Part shown: positions 8,854-24,424 of the stretch, piece after piece
Layout: each line of letters starts with the position of its first letter
Numbering within the stretch: position 1 is the stretch's first letter
DNA from: a virus
Strand: one strand, 5' to 3'
DNA: 24,824 bases
Virus record (IMG/VR): IMGVR_UViG_3300000553_000318
Location: 1-24,824 of that record
Program-made: the position numbers and the translations under genes
The notes under the pieces: model-generated
The model's database searches: none
Seen by the model: the letters and a program-made list of their open reading frames with translations, nothing else
What the model was told of the DNA's origin: nothing

Positions 8854-9144
8854 TTAATCTCCGTCTGTTTTAATGTTTGCGCTCATATCGTGACCGCATC
8901 TACTACACTTTTTAAACCAACTGCCGAATCCGCACTCAATACAAGTGTATCCGAGATTTTCGCTATTAAGAGTTGCACCATTAAGCGAAGCCTCAAAAAA
9001 ACCTTCTGCTTTCATTTGCCTTGCATGTTTAGGATTTTCAACTTCAATAACGCCTTTACGATTAACATCATATTTTCTTGTACCGCGTTCTGTCGTTACA
9101 TCAATACCGCGTACACCTTTATCGGGAGCAACGAGCCTTGCCAT
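8854..9144 (-). CDS. Small zinc-ribbon protein downstream of capsid gene
   Basis: A 96-residue protein (MARLVAPDKGVRGIDVTTER) with an AAAGG ribosome site. The first ~55 residues form a beta-rich part that contains GVIEVENPKHARQMKAEGFF, a pattern seen in small head-completion or capsid-adjacent proteins. The C-terminal part has C-I-E-C then C-S-R-C-G-H (C-x2-C-x9-C-x2-C) and would bind one zinc. It lies after the terminator-like hairpin downstream of the major capsid gene and just before the connector. It may be a capsid-to-connector factor or decoration protein, but the function is not recognised. Confidence 0.65.
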   Translation of the reverse strand: MARLVAPDKGVRGIDVTTERGTRKYDVNRKGVIEVENPKHARQMKAEGFFEASLNGATLNSENLGYTCIECGFGSWFKKCSRCGHDMSANIKTDGD

Positions 9145-9168
9145 ATTAGTAACCTTTCATTAGAAGAA

Positions 9169-9194
9169 AGAGCGGTGCGCCTTAACACCGCTCT
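9169..9194 (-). terminator. Terminator-like hairpin after major capsid gene
   Basis: A perfect 9-bp inverted repeat AGAGCGGTG / CACCGCTCT (arms 9169-9177 and 9186-9194, 8-base loop) sits 18 bases after the capsid stop codon. On the minus strand the stem is followed by TTCTTCTA, a moderately T-rich tail. The location after the most highly expressed head gene is typical of an intra-operon terminator or 3' stabiliser. Confidence 0.65.
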
Positions 9195-9211
9195 CCTTAT
9201 TTGTTTATTTC

Positions 9212-10900
9212 TTATGCAGAAACGATACCTGAAACAACACCGTTCCAAGCAGGTGCGTAGCAACCAAATGTTCCACGGAAATAAACTGACGTATCGTACG
9301 AGTACTGAATTACAGGCCATTGAATACCCATGTAATCCTGAACCATGAAGTTAGCCCATACATCCGAAACCTCAGTATCAGGAATTGGAAGCGTGTATGA
9401 GAGAACAGGTGCAACACCTTGAGTCAGCCAAGGGTGAACAGTGAGATCAACTAACTTACCTGTTGTTTCGTTATGAAGCCCTGTAACAACTGCTCCGCCG
9501 ACATATCCGCCAGTTTCAGTCTGTGTTAGGTTCAAACGATAGTTGGCAGTTGAGCCATTCTTAATTGCATCAGACAACTGACGGCGATCATTTCCGTTAA
9601 GAAGGATTTCGTCAGGGTCAGCCTTTACTCCGTCATACAAAGAAGCAAAAACAACTTGAAATTCTGTTCCTGGATTAGAGGTAGAGAATGACGTGTTGAT
9701 TTCGTTAATTGCACCAGAGTTAGGACCAAGAACAGTAGGCAAGATTCCGTCATAACCAGTTGCATATGAAGAAGTGTCGCCAGTAATTGTTGAAGCAAGA
9801 GTTCCTGTTGTATTAAATACAACGTTATCTCCAAGTGTCGCTCCACCAACTCCGTTGATGTAACCCGTAAGGCTAGTAATACGACCAACATAGTGAGCGT
9901 TAGCCGCACCAGTTGTTGTACCAACATAAATCTTTGTAGCAAGAGCACCAGCGACATTGTTAACAACAATCTTAACAACTTGACCTGTAGTAATTGCTTG
10001 TGACTGAACTGTTGAAAGAACAGACTCACCGAAAGCACCTGCATCTGATGTTACATAGACGTAGTAGGTAGTTCCGTTTGTAAGTCCGACCTGTGAGCCT
10101 GTGGCAGATACGGCGGAAAGAGTTACTGTTGGAGCGGCAAGAGCACCTGAATAACCTGCGGCGGTTGCGCCACGTGCGAACAACATCATGCGTTCTTCCA
10201 TAAGCATTGAAGCGTACAGAGTAGAAGTAGATGAAAGTTGACGAAGGTCTTGGTAACCCATGCCTGAGAAGTTAGCGTCAAACGAAACGCTATCAGATAG
10301 TGAATAGGTGTTATATGGCAAGGTAATGTCATCAGCAGTGTAAGAAATCTTCGGACCACGCTCTAGGTTAAGTCCACCAAAAGCAGTCTGTGAGGTTTCT
10401 GTAATTCCAGGCCAGATGTTTCCTTGTCCACCAGTACCCGTACCTGTGTAACCAGTAATGCGCTTAATTCTGTGCGCGGTTCCTACGCCCTTTTTACGAA
10501 CGATTTTGTTACGGAGTGGTGTTGGGCGAGGTGTGAGCAACTTAGCAGGGGCTTCGAGATCGTAAGCAGCAAACGAAGTTGAAAGTGGAACGGTGAGGGA
10601 AATGTCTTTGTTGATATCTGACATTGCTTGGCGTTGAGTTGCAAGTGCAGAGTTCAGCATACCAAGAGCATCAGGTGTCATTGACTTATTTGAAGCGAGT
10701 GCTTCTAGTCCAGCAAGCGGGTCGCTTGAACCAAAACGGACAGAGCCAGTTTGGATTTGATTAAGAACTGTTGGGTCGGTCGTAGCATTACTAAACGACT
10801 TAGAAAGTTCGTGAATCAATTCCTCTTGACGCTTTGCCGCTTTCTTTGGGCTATCTGCATCTGAAAACAATTCAGTAGCCTTAGGGGCTGTAAGAGCCAT
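9212..10900 (-). CDS. Major capsid protein (HK97 fold, with Ig-like insertion)
   Basis: 562 residues, larger than the ~300-400 of a bare HK97 capsid protein. Residues ~15-100 form an N-terminal helical delta-like region rich in Lys, Glu and Gln. The fold begins near YDLEAPAKLLTPRPTPLRNK (113-132), a phrase typical of actinophage-type capsids, and continues with IVRKKGVGTAHRIKRITGY. Residues ~255-375 (APTVTLSAVSATGSQVGLTN onward, with TTYYVYVTSDAG) look like an inserted Ig/fibronectin domain, probably exposed on the capsid surface. The C-terminal part is PVIQYSYDTSVYFRGTFGCY. The gene follows the prohead protease and precedes the hairpin. I do not see a clear protease cleavage site. Confidence 0.88.
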   Translation of the reverse strand: MALTAPKATELFSDADSPKKAAKRQEELIHELSKSFSNATTDPTVLNQIQTGSVRFGSSDPLAGLEALASNKSMTPDALGMLNSALATQRQAMSDINKDISLTVPLSTSFAAYDLEAPAKLLTPRPTPLRNKIVRKKGVGTAHRIKRITGYTGTGTGGQGNIWPGITETSQTAFGGLNLERGPKISYTADDITLPYNTYSLSDSVSFDANFSGMGYQDLRQLSSTSTLYASMLMEERMMLFARGATAAGYSGALAAPTVTLSAVSATGSQVGLTNGTTYYVYVTSDAGAFGESVLSTVQSQAITTGQVVKIVVNNVAGALATKIYVGTTTGAANAHYVGRITSLTGYINGVGGATLGDNVVFNTTGTLASTITGDTSSYATGYDGILPTVLGPNSGAINEINTSFSTSNPGTEFQVVFASLYDGVKADPDEILLNGNDRRQLSDAIKNGSTANYRLNLTQTETGGYVGGAVVTGLHNETTGKLVDLTVHPWLTQGVAPVLSYTLPIPDTEVSDVWANFMVQDYMGIQWPVIQYSYDTSVYFRGTFGCYAPAWNGVVSGIVSA

Positions 10901-15762: not shown

Positions 15763-16362
15763 TTAAACAATGTCGCCAGTTACGACCCAAGAGTTAGCGG
15801 CTATCTTTAAGATTGAAGCCATAGAGTTAGCGGCGCGAAGTTTAGGTGTAGCAGATGTAGCACCTGTTGAAATAACGGTTGTAGTTCCTGGAGTTACTGC
15901 CGAGATAGTTGGGTGCCCTGCACCTGTAATCCAAAACAGATTAAACTCTGTGCCAATACCAAAGTTAAAAGTAGCATCAACAGGAACGGTAAATGCTTGA
16001 GTTGCGGCGTTGTTCATTGAAAAGATATTGCCTTCGTCGCCTGATACAAATGTATATGCGGCGGTCTTGGCTGTATAAGTTTTAACAATTTTAGGTGTTG
16101 TAATTGTCGGAGCAGTACCGAACACAAGTGAGCCAGTTCCAGTCTTGTCGCTCATTACTCCAAGTAGTTGAGCAGACGTAGTTGCAGCAAATTGCGACAA
16201 AGAATTGGCTGTGCTTGCTGAACCAACCCACGCTGAACCCGTATAGGTAAAGACCGTGTTGGACGCTGTATTGAAATACTGGTCGCCTGCAGAAAGCGTT
16301 GGCAAAGTAGGTGCGCTTGCCAACGCGATAACGTTTACAGGGTCAAGAGCCTTCTTACTCAT
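15763..16362 (-). CDS. Fibre-like structural protein (mosaic, 199 aa)
   Basis: A 199-residue protein with no catalytic motif. The N-terminus (ALASAPTLPTLSAGDQYFNT then TYTGSAWVG) closely parallels residues 24-53 of the 539-residue fibre upstream. The C-terminal ~80 residues (TFNFGIGTEFNLFWITGAGH, then STGATSATPKLRAANSMA, ending WVVTGDIV) match the end of the 275-residue tail protein at 425-1252. It is therefore a mosaic of an attachment module from one fibre and a distal module from another. It lies between the fibre gene and portal. It is likely a virion fibre or adsorption accessory; its partner is unknown. Confidence 0.75.
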   Translation of the reverse strand: MSKKALDPVNVIALASAPTLPTLSAGDQYFNTASNTVFTYTGSAWVGSASTANSLSQFAATTSAQLLGVMSDKTGTGSLVFGTAPTITTPKIVKTYTAKTAAYTFVSGDEGNIFSMNNAATQAFTVPVDATFNFGIGTEFNLFWITGAGHPTISAVTPGTTTVISTGATSATPKLRAANSMASILKIAANSWVVTGDIV

Positions 16363-16368
16363 TGACTA

Positions 16369-17988
16369 CTATCCCAAGATAACTACGCGGTAAGCATTGG
16401 CAGTAGGCGCAACTGAGAAGTTAAGCGTTACTGTGTTTGTGCTTGCACGAAGATTATCTACCATTACTTCAGAGCCGTCTGATACGGTATAAACCTGAAC
16501 GAGTACATCAAGCGTTCCAAGGTTATGTGTAATCGTATAAGAAGTAGATGAAGTTGAAAGCAATTGTGAAAACTTACGAGCCACTACTGTTGTATCAACT
16601 GCAACGGTTCCAGTCGAAACTGTGATACCAGTACCAGCACCTACGGCTAATCCGCTTGAAGAAGTTCCAAGTCCTGAATTAGTTGCGAGCAGTACTGCGG
16701 CGGTTGCACCTGTACCACCAACGGTAAGACCACCCGTTGATAATGGAGCGAATGCGAATGTACCTGTTGTAAGTGTCAAGCCTGCACCAGCAATATAAGT
16801 AGCACCTACGGCATATTGAGTATAAGAAAGTGAATCAGTACCAAGTTTGATTCCATTAACAGGAGTTGTTGATGTACCTGTAGAAACTTCAACCCATGAC
16901 GTTGCGGCTTGTGTGCCTGCGGCTACAAAAGTGATATCGCCTGCACCGACTTGTCCTGCTACGTGGTTATCGTAATCAGTTGCGCGGGTCATTGTAATTG
17001 TTGAGCCGCCGATTGTTCCTACAAGGTAAACACCATTTTGTAAGGCGGTTGATTGATTCTTAACAAGAATACGGTCGCCTGTTGCAAGTGCGTGTCCGTC
17101 AATTGTTAGTGTTCCAGCGGCAGAGTAGACAAGTGTTGCACCTACGCCAGTACCGCCGTCTGCTCCTGCGGAACCTGAATTATAAGTCCAGTTAGTCGTA
17201 AGCGAAACAGTAGTAGCGACTTCAACTGCTGGATGTACGTTGAATCCCGAAGCGGTATTGTCGACGTAGTTTTTTGTAGCCGCGTCTTGTGCGGCAGTCG
17301 GGTCGGCAAGACCCGTAATCTTTTGCGCGTTGAATGGGACTGCGCCAGTTGGAACACCGAACGCTGACAATGCAAATCCACTTGGAGTAAATCCGTGAAC
17401 GTGATCATCTTTAGCAGGTGCAGTTCCAGAACCATTTGTTGCAGTTGTGGCTGTTACGTTGCTTGCGGCGTTTGTAGAAAGTGAAGGCGTTCCGTGTGTG
17501 TGGTCTGAATGAAGAACAGTCGTGGCGCTACCCGTTGTTGAAGATAGTCCATAAGTTGTTTGCGCGGTTGGTGTACCAAATCCAGGACCTGAGTGTGCGT
17601 GATCTGCACGTGCATAGTTAGTTGAAGTTCCGTCTGCTGTTGTTCCTGTGATTGTTACAGCAGTTGATAATCCTGTACCAAAATTACTTACCTGTGACCA
17701 AGTAGTTGCATTTGACTCATACATAAGTTGGTTATCGGTTGCATAATAAAATGCACCAGCGCCAGCAGTTGCGGCAGTAGGGCGAGCAGATAAAAGACCA
17801 ACAGTAATTTGTGTACTTGAAGGAGTTACCCAAGCGGAGCCGTTGTAATAAAGGAGACTGTTGCTTCCTGTGTTGTAATAAATCTGTCCAGCGACAGGAG
17901 AAGAAGGTGCTGATGCAAGATTCTGAATACGAGCGTTCTGTAACTCTTGTTGAGTTAAATCAATAGGTACTAAAAACTTGCGTGACAT
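16369..17988 (-). CDS. Tail fibre / receptor-binding protein with HxH repeats
   Basis: A 539-residue protein with a GGAGAAATA ribosome site. Residues ~20-105 hold two short attachment repeats (AGQIYYNTGSNSLLYYNGSA; AGAFYYATDNQLMYESNATT). Residues 130-198 contain three His-x-His motifs (HAH 130, HTH 163, HVH 196) exactly 33 residues apart, as in trimeric fibre regions that bind metal. Next come the fibre phrase QKITGLADPTAAQDAATKNY (222-241), DGHALATGDRILVKNQSTAL and a beta domain, then long Gly/Thr repeats. The C-terminus ends in an HNLG-type module (YTITHNLGTLDVLVQVY) shared with the collagen-like protein upstream. This is probably the main receptor-binding fibre. It has no chaperone or depolymerase motif. 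Confidence 0.82.
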   Translation of the reverse strand: MSRKFLVPIDLTQQELQNARIQNLASAPSSPVAGQIYYNTGSNSLLYYNGSAWVTPSSTQITVGLLSARPTAATAGAGAFYYATDNQLMYESNATTWSQVSNFGTGLSTAVTITGTTADGTSTNYARADHAHSGPGFGTPTAQTTYGLSSTTGSATTVLHSDHTHGTPSLSTNAASNVTATTATNGSGTAPAKDDHVHGFTPSGFALSAFGVPTGAVPFNAQKITGLADPTAAQDAATKNYVDNTASGFNVHPAVEVATTVSLTTNWTYNSGSAGADGGTGVGATLVYSAAGTLTIDGHALATGDRILVKNQSTALQNGVYLVGTIGGSTITMTRATDYDNHVAGQVGAGDITFVAAGTQAATSWVEVSTGTSTTPVNGIKLGTDSLSYTQYAVGATYIAGAGLTLTTGTFAFAPLSTGGLTVGGTGATAAVLLATNSGLGTSSSGLAVGAGTGITVSTGTVAVDTTVVARKFSQLLSTSSTSYTITHNLGTLDVLVQVYTVSDGSEVMVDNLRASTNTVTLNFSVAPTANAYRVVILG

Positions 17989-17996
17989 TATTTCTC

Positions 17997-18341
17997 CTAA
18001 ACTATGTAGGCGTAACCGCTAAACGCCGAACTGAATGTTATCACTATCTGATTTGTACTTGGTTGAGCAATAGCACCTTCGACTTGGTTATTAGCCGAAT
18101 CATAAACGATAGCGGTTGGATAATTACCTAAGTTATGGTTAATTGTCCAAACTGCCGTAGGTGTGTTTTGGTAATGCGTATAGAAAACATTTGTAACCGC
18201 GCCTGCTGGTCCTTGCGGTCCCGTTGCGCCCGTATCTCCTTTAGCACCTTGTGGTCCTGGAGCAGTAATCGAAACAGATGTTACAGATGGTTGCGTTATA
18301 ACATAAGTATTGATTGGCTCAACTACTACTACATCCGTCAT
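17997..18341 (-). CDS. Collagen-like short fibre protein
   Basis: A 114-residue protein starting at ATG 18341, which overlaps the preceding stop (ATGA). Residues 29-47 are six Gly-x-y triplets (GPQGAKGDTGATGPQGPAG), a small collagen-like trimerisation stalk as seen in many phage fibres. The C-terminal head has VWTINHNLGNYPTAIVYD followed by VEGAI, and matches the end of the 539-residue fibre encoded next (HNLG...V-x-V-x-x). The N-terminal ~25 residues probably anchor to a base or neck protein. Function: short trimeric fibre with a small knob; partner unknown. Confidence 0.8.
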   Translation of the reverse strand: MTDVVVVEPINTYVITQPSVTSVSITAPGPQGAKGDTGATGPQGPAGAVTNVFYTHYQNTPTAVWTINHNLGNYPTAIVYDSANNQVEGAIAQPSTNQIVITFSSAFSGYAYIV

Positions 18342-18691
18342 CTTGTTACCGAAGCACTTACTTCAAGTTGACCTTGAATAAGGCGGGTGACAATTCCTGC
18401 ACCGCTAGTAATTTCTAAATCGTATAAATAGTAACCTGCAACAATTGCGGCAGTTTGTATTGCTGTCGCGTGTAATGCAATTGTTCCCGTTGCTCCTGTA
18501 ATTGTAATACCGCTACCAGTAGTCAATGTAAGAACTGCTTTACTATCGCTGACATTAGAACGCGCTTGCATCTTTGCGGTGTAGCCAGTTAAGTTAACAG
18601 GAGTTGTTTGTGCCGCATCTGAATAATAAACGAAATTGCAATACCAATCCGCTCCTTGATCTATTACAAGTTTCTGCGTTCCTGCACTCAT
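18338..18691 (-). CDS. BppU-like baseplate/fibre-adaptor protein
   Basis: I choose ATG 18691, which forms an ATGA overlap with the terL stop, giving 117 residues (MSAGTQKLVIDQGADWYCNF). A longer reading from 18718 would start inside terL. The sequence IDQGADW-x-x-N, then VNLTGYTAKMQARSNVSD and GTIALHATAIQTAAIVAGYY, fits the N-terminal domain family seen in phage upper-baseplate and fibre-adaptor proteins (an Ig-like beta sandwich). It is the first gene of the fibre group and may be the anchor for the collagen-like and large fibres. The precise role is inferred. Confidence 0.65.
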   Translation of the reverse strand: MSAGTQKLVIDQGADWYCNFVYYSDAAQTTPVNLTGYTAKMQARSNVSDSKAVLTLTTGSGITITGATGTIALHATAIQTAAIVAGYYLYDLEITSGAGIVTRLIQGQLEVSASVTR

Positions 18692-20112
18692 GCACTTACT
18701 CCTAACGTATAACCGCACGCGCTACAAATACTTGCACCTTTAGGTGAAGGCATTGTGCAACTAGGACAGATACTAGACATAGCGGCAAGTGCAATCATAC
18801 TCGACCCACCTGTGTTTAATTCCGTTAAAGCCCAAACTAATGCATCAAGCCTATCAGGTGAATCTTTACTTTCGGGAGTCCACTCGCACATTTGTTCTTC
18901 CATTAAACCAAAATATCCAACATGATGAACTCTGCCTTGTTCATACAATGAGGAGATAGGTTCGGCGCGTAACTGTTTGCCTCTTGTAGCCGTTACCTTT
19001 TTTGTTGAAACGTTTCTATCTACTTGTTGCATTAATAGAATAATCATGTCGCCACCGTTATTAGTTTCGGCAACTATTCGGTCAGCGTTATGTTTATGGT
19101 AAGCCTCAACTGCAACACGCGCCCATGCATCAGGAGTAGCACGTAACGATTTATCATCTAAAACATAATAATGTCCAGCGTTATCAATACCAGCGACAAC
19201 AATTCCTGTTTCATCACTTTCATCTGTACTTGTAACGGCAGGGTCAACGCCTACAACAATACGGATTAACGGCGGTGTTTTTGTAATTCTTGCTTTATCA
19301 ATAATGGTGCGAGTCCATAATGCACCTTCAACATCCTCTAATAACTCACCGTATAACTCTTGGCGACCTATTCGCGTGTTTTCATATCGGGCTTTTAATT
19401 CCAGCAAAGCCGTAGGGGAAAGATTGTTAGCATTATCAAAAGTAGAACCACGCGTCACATGAACAGAGCCGTCTGTGCGTTTCATCCATTCGCGTAACAA
19501 TTTAATAGGTTTAGGTGTTGTTGTAACAACTACTCTTGGGTGTCTGCCGATACGCAAAGCAGGCGCTAATCCTTCTGTCCAAGTTTCATAGGGATAGTTC
19601 CACATAGCCAATTCGTCTAGCCACGCTCCTGAAAGGTTAAGTCCACGACCTGCATCAGGCGTATCCGCGCCGAACATATGTACCACTTGACCGTTGGAAA
19701 ATAATACTTTGTATGAAGATTTGTTGTAAATGTAATCCGTTCCAGCAACTAATCCTTTATAGTCTAACGCTTTAAGAAATCCCGACGGACCTTCCAAGCA
19801 AATGTTTTTAGCATCACCGAATGTTGGTGCGATAATTGCCCATTGAGTAGGTACTCCGTCTGGTGCTTTAGTGTGGCGTAATACTTGTTCGGCTAACCAT
19901 TCACCACCAGTTCGAGTTTTACCCCAACCGCGCCCGCTTAATATAAGCCAAACGCTCCAATTACCTTCAGGCTCTTGTTGTTCAGGTCTTGCAAGATACC
20001 ACCAAGGCTTATGAGCAATCTCTACAACAGTCTTTTCAGGTAACTTGGCTAACCAATCAAGACGTTCCTGCTTGGGCTTCGTCTTCATCTGTTCGTATAG
20101 AGATAGACCCAT
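18688..20112 (-). CDS. terL: Terminase large subunit with C-terminal zinc ribbon
   Basis: 474 residues; a GGAAGG ribosome site 7-8 bases upstream supports ATG 20112, inside the terS end (56-base overlap). The ATPase part has Walker A SGRGWGKTR (59-67), Walker B AWLDEL (163-168) and coupling motif TTTP (197-200). The nuclease has acidic residues D290 (VGVDPA), E349 (AETN) and D423 (RLDAL). It drives packaging and cuts concatemeric DNA at the portal. After the nuclease a short tail carries C449-x2-C452 and C463-x2-C466, a zinc ribbon not usual for TerL, which may contact DNA, portal or small terminase. The glf/GT cassette lies directly upstream. Confidence 0.95.
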   Translation of the reverse strand: MGLSLYEQMKTKPKQERLDWLAKLPEKTVVEIAHKPWWYLARPEQQEPEGNWSVWLILSGRGWGKTRTGGEWLAEQVLRHTKAPDGVPTQWAIIAPTFGDAKNICLEGPSGFLKALDYKGLVAGTDYIYNKSSYKVLFSNGQVVHMFGADTPDAGRGLNLSGAWLDELAMWNYPYETWTEGLAPALRIGRHPRVVVTTTPKPIKLLREWMKRTDGSVHVTRGSTFDNANNLSPTALLELKARYENTRIGRQELYGELLEDVEGALWTRTIIDKARITKTPPLIRIVVGVDPAVTSTDESDETGIVVAGIDNAGHYYVLDDKSLRATPDAWARVAVEAYHKHNADRIVAETNNGGDMIILLMQQVDRNVSTKKVTATRGKQLRAEPISSLYEQGRVHHVGYFGLMEEQMCEWTPESKDSPDRLDALVWALTELNTGGSSMIALAAMSSICPSCTMPSPKGASICSACGYTLGVSA

Positions 20113-20536
20113 AATCTTCGCCTTCCAAGAAATCTAGCACAGCCTTCTTAGCCTCATCTATTGTTACAAATATGTTAGCACCGTTCGCGCCAGTTATCTC
20201 TTGCTTAATCATATCTTTGCGACCCCAACGATCTGAATGCTTACGCTCTAAATACCATTGGGAAGCCCGAAGCGAACCGTTATTAGCCGCTTGCTTAATT
20301 AATGCAACAGCATGAACTTCCGCCTCTGCCTCTGCACGCTCTATTGACTCTACAAATTCTAAATAGATTCCTTTAGCGCCATCTTTCTTGCCCTCTTGAA
20401 GCCAACGGTAATAGATAGCCTCACTAATGCCTGCCATAGCGCAAGCCACCTTAGCGTAATTACCTGCACGAATAGCATTACAAACCTTCTCTACTAGATC
20501 AGGCGTAAGTTTTGTTTGGCGTCCTTTAGTTGCCAT
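20057..20536 (-). CDS. terS: Terminase small subunit
   Basis: I choose ATG 20536 (MATKGRQTKLTPDLVEKVCN): GAAGG lies 6 bases upstream, while the ATG at 20542 would touch that GAAGG. The product is 159 residues. The N-terminal half is a helix-turn-helix (AGNYAKVACAMAGISEAIYY, W-L-Q-E-G), followed by a helical oligomerisation part (FVESIERAEAEAEVHAVALI) and RASQWYLERKHSDRWGRKDM, a common phrase in small terminases and related HTH proteins. The C-terminal tail is acidic. It would recognise the packaging site and regulate TerL. The start overlaps the glycosyltransferase stop by 11 bases, so it is translationally coupled to the cassette. Confidence 0.88.
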   Translation of the reverse strand: MATKGRQTKLTPDLVEKVCNAIRAGNYAKVACAMAGISEAIYYRWLQEGKKDGAKGIYLEFVESIERAEAEAEVHAVALIKQAANNGSLRASQWYLERKHSDRWGRKDMIKQEITGANGANIFVTIDEAKKAVLDFLEGEDYGSISIRTDEDEAQAGTS

Positions 20537-22244
20537 GTTCATCCTTCAAGATAGGCATCTGTGGAAATTTGCCCCACACTTGCGAAGGCGCAATTCTTGG
20601 TGCACCGTTTTTGGTAATCACCTTAAAATCATCTCCCCATTGTGTTACGAGATTCTCGCAACGCTTACGCATAGTGCTACCCACTCTTGCCTCTGCACCC
20701 ATGCCGCCAACATCATTAGGAGTTGTAGGTAGATTAACTAATGCGGTTGCGAATACAAGAGAGCAATAACCAGCATCTAAATACTGCATAGTCATATCAA
20801 TATCGTCGATAATCATTGGGCGAAACCTTAATTCGTTCTCATTATTAAATAACATTGCGGAGGCAACCATCCTGTTTAACTTAATAGGTTGCTTGACTCC
20901 AAACGCCCAAGTGTCGTACATAGGCGCGGCGCATCCAATATTGGTGTAAATGTTAGTAACGCTTTCAACAAGGTTAATGACATGAGAAGGTCTAGTGTTA
21001 ATGTTTTTATCATTCTTTCGGAACTTAAACGCCTTAACATCATCATCAAACTGCCAATGAAACTTAGCATTTAACGATTTAGAATGTTCTTTTGCAAAAT
21101 TGCGGGCGTAATCAATACCCATATCGTTCTTATCCATTACAACTAATTCTTCTTCTTTGTAATTCTTTCTATATTTCTCGGCGTCTTGCGGTTCAATTAA
21201 CACAAAGAAGGGTACGCCATCTTTCTGAAATAATTTTGCGGTTGTTCCGCTATCTGCCCTTCCCTTAGAAGGTATGTAAATCGGATACATGACTTTACTA
21301 TCGGGGCTTTCGACTAACTTATCAGCCAAGTCCAAACCAATTTGTAATGATTCAGATATAACTTTAGAACTTTTAATAGTCTTAACGGATTTAATTTCCG
21401 TTGGGACTAATGGAACTTTTGATTGATCTACTGGAATTAGTTGTTGCTTAAAACTAGAGAAATCAACAACATGATGAACTCTATTGAACTTAATTACCGT
21501 CTTAGAGCAATCAGGATGGGTTCTAACTAATTCAGCAGACTTCTTAATAAATCCGCCTTGAGCATAGAAATCAGTCATGCCGCCAGCAAGTCTATTTTTA
21601 CGGCTTGTTCCCATTTTAACAATTCCAACAATTCGGCTTTCGGCGGTACACCAGTATCCTGTTTTAAGAATATCAAGGCTTACAATCGTGTCGTCATTAA
21701 GCCCTCTGCGCCATTTGATTCCGTATTGGTCTAAATCGTTACGGTAAAGAGTACAACAATATAGGCGAGTGTTAAGCATTATTGCGCTTCCCCGCATAAA
21801 CGGAGCCATCGCAAGTGCTACACCAGCAAGATTTTGATACTTTTTAATAAAATCTTCGTGCCAATGCAGTGCTAATGCATTAGCAACATTAGCCCTTTTG
21901 CCTTTGCTGCGTACGAGAAACCCTCTTATGTTATCGTCCATAATCCAGTGATGAGTAAAGCCATTAGCGCGTGAATGATCCCAAGCGTAATTATGAGCCG
22001 CGCCTGTTGTTGGGTGCGGGTCTAATTCAGGAGTTTTCTCATAATCGTCTAAATAACTTTGAGGCCATACGATTACTTTGCAATCAGGATTAGCCTCTTT
22101 ATAGGCTTCCTCCTCTGCGGCTTCGACAATAAGATAGGGCGATATGCCTAACTTTAATAATGCATTAGCAGTTAATTGCTTTTGCGGACGTCCGCGTGTA
22201 GGAATATAGACAGGAAAATCTAACGGACTATCTATCCCTGCCAT
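20526..22244 (-). CDS. Tandem two-domain glycosyltransferase, TET-associated (TAGT)-like
   Basis: 572 residues, two homologous GT-A-like domains. Domain 1 (~9-265): YIPTRGR 13-19, W100 then MDDN (102-105), NDDT-x-x-x-LDILKTGYWC (183-199), and GGMTDFYAQGG (221-231). Domain 2 (~318-572): YIPSKGR 323-329, WQFDDD (397-402), IDDIDM-x-x-QYLDAGYC (479-494), and VGGMGAEAR (512-520). The paired DD motif plus a second DD with L-D/K-x-GY-C is, as I know it, the pattern of phage TAGT enzymes, which glycosylate hydroxymethylated DNA bases. Most members have one domain; here both copies keep the DD motifs. The gene overlaps ParB (13 bases) and terS. Alternative: a capsid or fibre protein glycosyltransferase. 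Confidence 0.75.
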   Translation of the reverse strand: MAGIDSPLDFPVYIPTRGRPQKQLTANALLKLGISPYLIVEAAEEEAYKEANPDCKVIVWPQSYLDDYEKTPELDPHPTTGAAHNYAWDHSRANGFTHHWIMDDNIRGFLVRSKGKRANVANALALHWHEDFIKKYQNLAGVALAMAPFMRGSAIMLNTRLYCCTLYRNDLDQYGIKWRRGLNDDTIVSLDILKTGYWCTAESRIVGIVKMGTSRKNRLAGGMTDFYAQGGFIKKSAELVRTHPDCSKTVIKFNRVHHVVDFSSFKQQLIPVDQSKVPLVPTEIKSVKTIKSSKVISESLQIGLDLADKLVESPDSKVMYPIYIPSKGRADSGTTAKLFQKDGVPFFVLIEPQDAEKYRKNYKEEELVVMDKNDMGIDYARNFAKEHSKSLNAKFHWQFDDDVKAFKFRKNDKNINTRPSHVINLVESVTNIYTNIGCAAPMYDTWAFGVKQPIKLNRMVASAMLFNNENELRFRPMIIDDIDMTMQYLDAGYCSLVFATALVNLPTTPNDVGGMGAEARVGSTMRKRCENLVTQWGDDFKVITKNGAPRIAPSQVWGKFPQMPILKDEHGN

Positions 22245-22915
22245 ATCTCTGCCGCTTCTCTTACGAATGATGCGGGGTAACGAATAGTTAATTCCTTAGC
22301 ATCATGTTTATATCCAATAGCCTTATAGAAATCTTCTCGTGATTCGGGAGTTTGAAAATAAACACGAAGTACGGTTGAATACTGCATTACAACTCCGCCT
22401 TCATCTACTCCCGTATCGCCAATAAATTCATCAATAGCAGACTTAACATCTACCGTAAATACTTCTTCGGCTTCTAATGCTTTACCAAGATTAGTTAAAT
22501 CTGTTTCAACAAAACCAACGGTGTCTAAAATATTGTTATCGGATAACTCTTGAAGAATTGTTAAAAGGTTTTCACGATTCCATCCGCCTTGTTCCGTTGT
22601 GCGGTTTAACGCAACCAACGCGGCTCTTGCTTCTATATCATCTTGCGAAGCCCAACCAGTAGCAACGGGAACAAGCCATTTGCCGTCTTTAACTGTTATG
22701 CCAGTTGGCGGTTCTTTTCCTTCATCACGCATCTCAGTTAAAACCTCTTTACGCCCATGACCACTAATCATAAAACCTGTGCGCTGATCAACTACAATTG
22801 GTTCAACATAACCAAATGTTGTTAATGATTTATCTAACAACTTCTTATCATGATTTTTAGGATTAGCAGGATTTGGCTTTAAATCATCTAGTGATACTAG
22901 GTCTATATTTCTCAT
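22232..22915 (-). CDS. ParB-like nuclease / DNA-binding protein
   Basis: I choose ATG 22915, which overlaps the glf stop (ATGA) with GGAGG upstream at 22924-22920, giving 227 residues; the extension to 22951 lies inside glf. Residues ~5-130 form the ParB/RepB/Spo0J domain: LKPNPANPKNHDKKLLDKSL, then GYVEPIVVD and MISGHGRKEVL (GHGR 52-55), later ARAALVALNRTTEQGGWNRE. This form resembles phage ParB-like proteins that are often linked to DNA methyltransferases. Residues ~150-227 are a separate acidic, then alpha/beta C-terminal part. No methyltransferase motif is seen. In this cassette it might direct the glycosyltransferase to DNA or act as a nuclease. Inferred. Confidence 0.8.
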   Translation of the reverse strand: MRNIDLVSLDDLKPNPANPKNHDKKLLDKSLTTFGYVEPIVVDQRTGFMISGHGRKEVLTEMRDEGKEPPTGITVKDGKWLVPVATGWASQDDIEARAALVALNRTTEQGGWNRENLLTILQELSDNNILDTVGFVETDLTNLGKALEAEEVFTVDVKSAIDEFIGDTGVDEGGVVMQYSTVLRVYFQTPESREDFYKAIGYKHDAKELTIRYPASFVREAAEIWQG

Positions 22916-24018
22916 TGTGCCTCCAGGTAGGGTTTGATTTCGTTGTTCCACATAGTTAATGCCGAAGCAATTGCCGCGTGCATATCTATATATTTATATG
23001 AGCCAAGCCGACCACCAAACCATACACCTTGCATAACGGAAGCGGCTTCGCGATATTTCTTTAATTTAATTTGATCCGAAATAGTATTAACAGGATATGC
23101 ACCCGTTTCGTCGGGTTGAGCCTCGCGAGAATACTCTTTATGGATAATAGTTCCGCGCGTTTCTCGGTCAGGGCGATAATGTTTATACTCGTGAATGCGA
23201 GTGAATGGCATATTTGAATCAGCATAATTCATAACTGAACAGCCTTGATAATCGTCTATTTCTAATCTTTCTTCTACTAAATCAACGGTACGCCAATTTA
23301 ATCTTCCGTATGAATAATTGAAAAACTTATCTATCGGTCCTGTATAAACATATGGCTGGGTAATTGTTTCTTCTAACACATTAGTATTTAACACAACATT
23401 AATCTTTGCATGGTCAGCCATACGATTCATCCATGTTTGATAGCCGTCTGCGGGAAGCCCTTGATATTTGTCGGTAAAATATCCGTCATCCCAAGTGTAA
23501 CGAATCGGCAATCTTTTAATAGTGCTTACTGGTAACTCTTTAGGGTCACGCCCCCATTGTTTGTATGTATAACCTTCTACTACTGCTTTATACAAATCTT
23601 TGCCAATACAGGAAATGGCTACTTCTTCAAAATTGTCACCTTTTTGCGGAAAAGTTTTAATTAAATCGTGCATCATTTTAGGAGTGAACGCTTTGTTGTA
23701 GTAAGCACTAAAGGTTGCTAAACCAAACGGCAATGGAATCACCGCACCAGTAGAAGTAATAGTTCTTACTCTATGTATGTAAGGAACAAATGATGTGAAA
23801 CGATTTACATATTCCCACACCTTTTCATTGTTAGTGTGAAAAATATGCGAACCGTAAGTATGTACTTCTATGCCAGTTTCTTCATCTATGCGGGAAGCCA
23901 TATTGCCGCCTATTTGATTTTGTTGCTCAATAATGTCAACGCTAAATCCGCACGAAGCCGCTTGCTCTGCGATTGTTAAGCCAAAAATTCCAGCCCCGCC
24001 TATAACTAAATCGCTCAC
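22912..24018 (-). CDS. glf: UDP-galactopyranose mutase
   Basis: 368 residues, of normal length for the family (~365-390). It starts at GTG 24018, overlapping the preceding stop (GTGA). The N-terminal dinucleotide site is VIGGAGIFGLTIAEQAASCG with an acidic loop ending IIEQQNQIGGN. Next come IEVHTYGSHIFHTNNEKVWE (the substrate/FAD region) and PVSTIKRLPIRYTWDDGYFT with PADGYQTWMNRM. The C-terminal part has DYQGCSVMNYADSNMPFTRI and GGRLGSYKYIDMHAAI, which closes the FAD site. It converts UDP-galactopyranose and UDP-galactofuranose using reduced FAD. The reading frame is intact. In a phage packaging operon, beside a glycosyltransferase, it is likely to supply a Galf donor; the acceptor is unproved. 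Confidence 0.95.
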   Translation of the reverse strand: MSDLVIGGAGIFGLTIAEQAASCGFSVDIIEQQNQIGGNMASRIDEETGIEVHTYGSHIFHTNNEKVWEYVNRFTSFVPYIHRVRTITSTGAVIPLPFGLATFSAYYNKAFTPKMMHDLIKTFPQKGDNFEEVAISCIGKDLYKAVVEGYTYKQWGRDPKELPVSTIKRLPIRYTWDDGYFTDKYQGLPADGYQTWMNRMADHAKINVVLNTNVLEETITQPYVYTGPIDKFFNYSYGRLNWRTVDLVEERLEIDDYQGCSVMNYADSNMPFTRIHEYKHYRPDRETRGTIIHKEYSREAQPDETGAYPVNTISDQIKLKKYREAASVMQGVWFGGRLGSYKYIDMHAAIASALTMWNNEIKPYLEAQ

Positions 24019-24185
24019 TTTTTACCAGCCCACCCATCTCCTGTAAATATTGTCGGGGTAGCATGAATTACTTTTCGCATTGGTAAATCGCAGTCATCAC
24101 AATCAACATCCTGCTTTTCCATAAAATTAAAATGCAAGGTTTGTATCACTTTGCATGTATCACACTTAAAATCATATAACGGCAT
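24015..24185 (-). CDS. FmdB-type zinc-ribbon small protein
   Basis: A 56-residue protein found by translating the minus strand from ATG 24185 (GGAGG at 24194-24190). It starts MPLYDFKCDTCKVIQTLHFN, has C-D-D-C at residues 29-32, and ends with FTGDGWAGKK. The pattern C-x2-C (8-11) and C-x2-C (29-32) with a terminal G-D-G-W matches FmdB family zinc ribbons, small regulators or rRNA/transcription-linked proteins also found in phages. Its stop overlaps the GTG of glf, so the two are coupled. A regulatory role is inferred; the partner is unknown. Confidence 0.8.
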   Translation of the reverse strand: MPLYDFKCDTCKVIQTLHFNFMEKQDVDCDDCDLPMRKVIHATPTIFTGDGWAGKK

Positions 24186-24247: not shown

Positions 24248-24424
24248 CTACTCTTTTGGAGCGCGAGCCGCCTTTACTCGCTCAACATCTGCAAGTTGAA
24301 ACATTGAACGGCGTTTCAACTTTCCAGTAGGAACAAGAAGTTTGCGGTGTACTAATTGACGAAGATTGTTTCCGCTAATGCCAAGAAACTCCGCCGCTTG
24401 TATTGAATCAATTGTTTCGTTCAT
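24248..24424 (-). CDS. Small helix-turn-helix (MerR/excisionase-like) protein
   Basis: A 58-residue protein from ATG 24424 (ribosome site AAGAGAGG). The N-terminal IDSIQAAEFLGISGNNLRQL followed by V-H-R-K-L-L-V-P is a winged-helix DNA-binding motif of the MerR/excisionase type (QAAEFLGIS as the turn; basic K-L-K-R-R wing). It is shorter than full MerR proteins and lacks an effector domain. It lies after SSB and before the hairpin and FmdB-glf cassette, so it may regulate transcription or act in genome management. With no integrase or attachment site seen, I do not call it an excisionase. Confidence 0.78.
   Translation of the reverse strand: MNETIDSIQAAEFLGISGNNLRQLVHRKLLVPTGKLKRRSMFQLADVERVKAARAPKE

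Follow-up and report, generated by a model that had tools for sequence, protein, structure and literature searches.

Genes of the Cassette

The window, meaning the whole stretch of 24,824 nucleotides analyzed here, is a 24.8-kb fragment of a virus and carries portal, head, tail-tape-measure, and terminase genes, with nearly all of its genes on the minus strand. On this strand, glf, a ParB-like gene, a gene for a double TAGT glycosyltransferase, terS, and terL follow one another in that order with head-to-tail overlaps. The glf gene (22912–24018) has a GTG start and encodes a predicted UDP-galactopyranose mutase (UGM) of 368 amino acids (Pfam GLF, E = 1.4e-69); the stop codon of a small gene upstream overlaps this start (GTGA, 24018–24015). 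The ParB-like gene (22232–22915; PHROG 620, E = 2.2e-26) shares the bases ATGA (22915–22912) with glf. Its longest open reading frame begins at 22951, and a better ATG, with GGAGG ahead of it, lies at 22915. A 13-base overlap (22232–22244) joins it to the TAGT gene (20526–22244), which encodes 572 amino acids (PHROG 842, E = 7.4e-65). The latter in turn overlaps terS, the gene for the terminase small subunit (20057–20542; PHROG 4102, E = 1.3e-35), by 17 bases counted from the first terS ATG or 11 from the second. The gene for the terminase large subunit, terL, occupies 18688–20112 (Pfam Terminase_6N, E = 3.2e-18; Terminase_6C, E = 7.7e-18). A preliminary description of this DNA had placed a ParB-like gene between glf and the glycosyltransferase gene and given overlaps of ATGA, 13 bases, and 11 bases leading into terS; our coordinates and the PHROG match agree with it. 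The same gene set was found again in relatives, and thus the cassette is no assembly accident.

Genes for WhiB and Lsr2 occur in relatives of the window virus, the window UGM resembles actinobacterial enzymes, and a TAGT was found in a Nanopelagicales MAG. Together, these sequence similarities suggest actinobacterial hosts, and the presumed hosts would point to a fresh-water source. No close cultured phage relative was found.

A Predicted UDP-Galactopyranose Mutase

The glf product passes the NCBIfam equivalog TIGR00031 (314.4 bits, cut-off 303.75) and matches the solved UDP-galactopyranose mutase 5br7 over its full length (phmmer, E = 1.6e-113). The FAD Rossmann motif and the W, R, R, Y, and Y motifs of the UGM family align with 5br7 without loss, and W155, R173, R274, Y308, and Y343, which we take to have the catalytic roles assigned to these Trp, Arg, Arg, Tyr, and Tyr residues in UGMs, are invariant across the window clade. 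By family membership, the product is a true UDP-galactopyranose mutase, intact as originally proposed. It is akin to the bacterial UGMs of Corynebacterium diphtheriae and Mycobacterium tuberculosis in full-length homology, equivalog score, and catalytic motifs, but is phage-borne and coupled to a TAGT rather than to cell-wall galactan transferases.

Of the window-clade records, nine extend far enough upstream to be informative, and every one of these has glf; they represent about five or six distinct lineages, with the window and G001, and likewise G003 and G004, being near-copies. In G003 and G004, a GalE gene that scores above its equivalog cut-off sits directly upstream of glf. GalE followed by UGM is the textbook route from UDP-Glc via UDP-Galp to UDP-Galf, and the route is therefore complete in these two records. 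They also carry a cytidylyltransferase-like gene, and clade members G006 and G008 carry a dTDP-glucose-dehydratase-like gene that scores below cut-off. Because all informative clade members retain glf and one lineage has added GalE, we consider it less likely that glf is a random passenger. Outside the clade, in a very divergent phage (L166), TAGT overlaps glf by 4 bases. The TAGT tree gave no support for an independent gain of this pairing in L166, whose very long branch makes independence impossible to demonstrate.

Two TAGT Domains in One Protein

The preliminary description recognized two TAGT-like domains in the 572-residue protein, and profile search places both in the Pfam TAGT family (PF20691; 200.2 bits, cut-off 27.5, E = 4.6e-59, two matched stretches). 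Domain A (about residues 10–258; 21471–22217, minus strand) has the motifs Asp103-Asp104-Asn105 and Asp185 and resembles TAGTs of T4-like and Vibrio phages. Domain B (residues 320–503; 20736–21287, minus strand) retains the Asp motif at residues 400–401 and is akin to the TAGT of the TET cluster of Nonlabens phage P12024L (24% identity), as well as to TAGTs that other phages encode as genes of their own. For example, A-like and B-like TAGTs are separate genes in G013, one on each side of an epimerase gene, and G006 and G008 have domain A only. Across 44 aligned TAGT domains, including window domain B, the catalytic Asp motifs are invariant or nearly so. Two uncharacterized neighboring genes (387–1247 in L166 and a 306-aa gene in L079) are not TAGT-like by profile comparison.

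An AlphaFold2 model of domain A (mean pLDDT 89.5) has a GT-A fold, and its structural neighbors include cellulose synthase, polypeptide GalNAc-transferases, GnT-I, and the galactofuranosyltransferase GlfT2. These neighbors of the model indicate the GT-A fold and say nothing on the acceptor. There was no DNA glycosyltransferase among the matches listed, an absence that is no evidence either way, and no sequence relative of the TAGT protein was found in the PDB.

A ParB-Like Partner With a Second Conserved Domain

Residues 15–149 of the window ParB-like protein match a local ParB_N profile, which was built partly from this protein itself. The protein stays below a match to Pfam PF02195, which one homolog passes. 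In a Foldseek search with its AlphaFold2 model, ParB-N/CTPase structures came out on top (E = 1.7e-5), in agreement with an N-terminal ParB/CTPase fold. A GHGR motif lies at the expected position of the box-II arginine, and NTP binding is putative.

Of 101 TAGT loci from IMG/VR, counted without dereplication, 70 have a ParB gene that directly adjoins TAGT in the same orientation. The ParB-TAGT pair also occurs in Chryseobacterium prophages. Alignment of the TAGT-adjacent ParB-like proteins revealed a second, C-terminal domain of ~70 residues with the motif EWxGMPEF. A profile of this domain, built without the window clade, matches the C-termini of ParB-like proteins, stand-alone proteins of ~75–120 aa that adjoin TAGT, and, among T4-like and Vibrio isolates, N-terminal regions of TAGT proteins. 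ParB_N, EWxGMPEF, and TAGT are fused in a single chain at four loci (L066, L070, L081, and L096), and a fifth such fusion comes from a bacterial MAG (L240). We also scanned the collection with a degenerate DNA pattern for EWxGMPEF, a selection independent of TAGT. TAGT lies beside or is fused to 71 of the 73 viral, motif-selected ORFs that contain EWxGMPEF, and in the remaining two the motif lies no more than about 250 bases from where the sequence stretch ends. The profile does not match the window ParB-like protein but weakly matches its orthologs in G002 and G006; we therefore assigned the window protein a divergent C-terminal EWxGMPEF-type domain by orthology.

Judged by this adjacency, the fusions, and the motif scan, the ParB-like protein is a near-obligate TAGT partner in the relatives, which supports the functional tie of the two genes within one cassette proposed in the preliminary description. 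Phage ParB-fold proteins are often fused to DNA-methyltransferase domains (PMC12704722), and ParB genes adjoin a phage cytosine-modifying enzyme (PMC12783734). The EWxGMPEF domain offers a sharp sequence handle for ParB-TAGT systems, and with it a partnership of ParB with DNA-modifying enzymes can be put to the test.

Exchangeable Sugar-Nucleotide Genes

Within 8 kb of TAGT, 49 of the 101 loci encode an NAD-dependent epimerase/dehydratase (median distance 949 bp) and 30 of 101 a UDP-glucose dehydrogenase. The order ParB, TAGT, a second TAGT in some cases, epimerase, dehydrogenase, terS, and terL was found again in many phages, and at least eight changes are needed to place the dehydrogenase label on the TAGT tree. 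The window clade yielded no UDP-glucose dehydrogenase in the vicinity of the cassette. Judged from gene content, the sugar-nucleotide genes are exchangeable, with UDP-glucose dehydrogenase and epimerase in many phages and glf in the window clade. Along with the GalE gene of a relative, these counts uphold the view that nucleotide-sugar genes belong to TAGT cassettes.

Search for an Acceptor-Making Enzyme

Clusters that combine TET/JBP, TAGT, and methyltransferase genes are said to have been first described by Iyer et al. in 2013. In Nonlabens phage P12024L, TET, TAGT, and methyltransferase genes stand in a row. The window resembles this cluster in having a TAGT gene within a phage DNA-modification setting, and the P12024L TAGT can be aligned with domain B, but the window lacks TET and methyltransferase; its TAGT protein carries a second TAGT domain and is accompanied by UGM and a ParB-like protein. 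The TET/JBP association implied by the TAGT name does not hold in the window clade; the name is historical, and membership in the Pfam family is clear.

We found no match to TET (PF12851) in 29–30 related records and 50 TAGT records, none to the thymidylate-synthase family (PF00303) in 30 clade or related records and 50 further TAGT records, and none to C5-methyltransferases (PF00145) in 48 records, the clade included. The PF12851 profile does detect the P12024L TET and a Winogradskyella TET, and phmmer with the P12024L TET gave no match to ORFs of the TAGT loci. Many of the searched records are fragments, so that only complete genomes carry full weight. One genome of the window clade (G002) is complete, with an exact terminal repeat of 123 bp and with portal and terminase genes continuous across the junction, and it has no PF12851, PF00303, or PF00145 match. 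A circular TAGT record (G098, 70-bp repeat) likewise has no TET or TS-family match. The non-structural proteins of G006 and G002 include, by Pfam, SSB, RecT, RusA, WhiB, Lsr2, pyrimidine-dimer glycosylase, and DUF932, and there was no recognized hydroxylase among the 25 of 31 Pfam families listed. The preliminary description had linked the TAGT domains to TET and hydroxymethylated bases and suggested a search for a TET or hydroxymethylase gene elsewhere in the genome. The link was not supported in this branch, with no such gene of known families found in the relatives, including complete G002, and this lack of an enzyme to hydroxylate a base speaks in part against the original proposal.

Other TAGT phages differ in this respect. 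Several T4-like ones, for example Aeromonas 65 and Kuja, have thymidylate synthase only, while in PTm1 a pyrimidine hydroxymethylase is also present. In T6-type Tequatrovirus, a TAGT is proposed to add the second sugar on glucosylated cytosine (glucosyl-mdC) in the gentiobiosyl-cytosine system (PMC13390438). This TAGT belongs to the same Pfam family (PF20691) as that of the window, but T6-type phages use a dCMP-hydroxymethylase route and UDP-glucose, and no hydroxymethylase was found in the window clade; T6 was not among the tblastn matches of the window TAGT protein. In the RB69/Mosigvirus arabinosyl-cytosine system (PMC6024577, PMC13390438), RB69 makes the acceptor with a thymidylate-synthase-type enzyme. 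This system works like that of the window in that the phage makes its own nucleotide sugar and a single glycosyltransferase or a pair of them yields bases with a mono- or disaccharide, but the RB69 sugar genes differ, and no acceptor-making enzyme of the RB69 kind was found in the window clade.

A Tentative Role in Phage DNA Modification

The cassette most likely makes galactofuranose and passes it to the double TAGT. Our leading explanation, which we put somewhat short of an even chance, is ParB-guided galactofuranosylation of phage DNA, via an unrecognized hydroxyl-generating step or an unexpected acceptor. UGM would take UDP-galactopyranose, which the host or, in one relative, a phage GalE supplies, and turn it into UDP-galactofuranose. 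The C-terminal domain of the ParB-like protein may bind the TAGT enzyme and bring it to phage DNA, where the two GT-A domains would decorate replicated DNA with galactofuranose before packaging, each perhaps adding a single residue. DNA modified in this way could resist host nucleases. The sequences themselves show the enzyme families, the intact motifs, the gene order, the ParB-TAGT fusions, and the exchangeable sugar modules; we infer that DNA is the acceptor, that Galf is what is transferred, that each domain adds one sugar, and that protection is the purpose. DNA is favored as the target because of the precedents in the family (the T6 TAGT and P12024L) and the ParB fusions, and the missing acceptor enzyme calls for caution.

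The enzymes may instead glycosylate virion proteins, with UGM making UDP-Galf and the TAGT domains attaching Galf to capsid or tail proteins. The cassette does adjoin terS, terL, and structural genes, and in Vibrio phage 1.076.O (a partial-genome record) a TAGT gene without TET/TS lies between portal and head morphogenesis genes. Structurally, the TAGT domain has its neighbors among GT-A enzymes that act on proteins or polysaccharides, including protein O-GalNAc transferases. We count both of the latter observations against a DNA target. However, the near-obligate link or fusion to a ParB-like/EWxGMPEF partner is hard to explain if virion proteins are the target, and the TAGT precedents (P12024L, T6-type) concern DNA, which makes this alternative unlikely. 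That partner, recurring and fused to TAGT, likewise argues against the idea that the enzymes alter glycans of the host wall or surface in infected cells, for instance as a block to superinfection, and we recognized neither a membrane-anchored partner nor a lipid carrier gene. Galf normally occurs in actinobacterial walls, and WhiB and Lsr2 in the relatives suggest actinobacterial hosts, in keeping with such a role; one was also argued for phage UDP-glucose dehydrogenase and glycosyltransferase genes (PMC7029224) and proposed for glycosyltransferase genes of pelagimyophages. We regard it as quite improbable for the window.

A further alternative keeps DNA as the target and changes the sugar: TAGT would add glucose or a pentose, and UGM would act on UDP-arabinopyranose or be a host-derived passenger. 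UGM tolerates UDP-arabinose, and the enzyme could act on another UDP-sugar, a point that we count against Galf on DNA. Most other TAGT cassettes have UDP-glucose dehydrogenase and epimerase, epimerase alone, or no sugar gene, and cytosines that bear arabinose are known from Mosigvirus phages (PMC13390438). The window clade speaks against it with GalE beside UGM in G003/G004, with no sign of UDP-glucose dehydrogenase close to the cassette, and with glf retained in all informative members, leaving a rather slim chance for another sugar. What these four readings leave over falls to something else.

A more specific form of galactofuranosylation of phage DNA seems to us unlikely as a whole: Galf would be put on DNA without the known hydroxyl-generating enzymes, through a new acceptor chemistry (an unknown base hydroxylase or an unmodified DNA position), and the cassette would represent that branch of a widespread ParB-EWxGMPEF-TAGT system which uses galactofuranose. 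The literature searched held no account of phage DNA that carries galactofuranose. Should our leading explanation prove correct, the list of sugars known from phage DNA would grow by galactofuranose, and for an entire branch of TAGT phages the way in which bases are readied for glycosylation would have to be explained anew. The Galf question can be asked in cultured phages, since glf occurs in T4-like phages of Rhizobium, Agrobacterium, and Aeromonas. In favor of the leading explanation, of the T4-like phages with glf, Aeromonas 25 and probably RL38J1 carry a dCMP hydroxymethylase, as does Atu_ph04 (PMC6630229).

Domain architectures and gene content of TAGT-type loci

Several TAGT-type loci pair the glycosyltransferase (PF20691) with a ParB-like protein that has a C-terminal domain of about 70 residues, EWxGMPEF. 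Single-chain fusions of ParB_N, EWxGMPEF and TAGT are encoded at L066 2675-4099, L070 406-1785, L081 9401-10765 and L096 89-1573. No Pfam family matched EWxGMPEF in the scanned homologues; it seems to be an undescribed partner domain of TAGT. The protein encoded at L127 1814-3133, next to TAGT, has a tandem pair of ParB_N domains ahead of EWxGMPEF. In another locus (L306), a ParB-EWxGMPEF gene is followed by four consecutive TAGT genes, perhaps for longer glycans.

Aeromonas phage 25 is a cultured candidate for a galactofuranose-modified genome. At L060 5995-9266 it carries glf followed by two uncharacterized genes of about 350 amino acids, both without a Pfam match, and a dCMP hydroxymethylase is annotated in this phage.

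Among the window's viral relatives, the locus from contig G010 (L011) has the gene order ParB-glf-TAGT. Its TAGT match (53% identity) spans 9062-10153, a region in which gene calling gave no single long ORF, and the TAGT frame may be broken. A pyrimidine-dimer DNA glycosylase family gene (PF03013; L031 9868-10296) has orthologues retained in clade members G004, G006 and G008.

Other genes in the window

Upstream of glf, a small gene (24015-24185) encodes a protein with paired cysteines that resembles an FmdB-type zinc ribbon. Its stop codon and the glf start codon share the bases GTGA, so this gene may be part of the cassette's operon. A 58-aa ORF (24248-24424), located between SSB and the cassette, reads like a small helix-turn-helix protein of the excisionase/MerR type.

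At its C-terminus, TerL (18688-20112) has a segment resembling a zinc ribbon (CPSC...CSAC, residues about 449-470), an unusual feature for a terminase; the Pfam matches to zinc ribbons are weak. Several structural genes (425-1252, 15763-16362, 16369-17988 and 17997-18341) share PHROG matches at their C-termini, some of them tail-fibre-type, which suggests a shuffled decoration domain.
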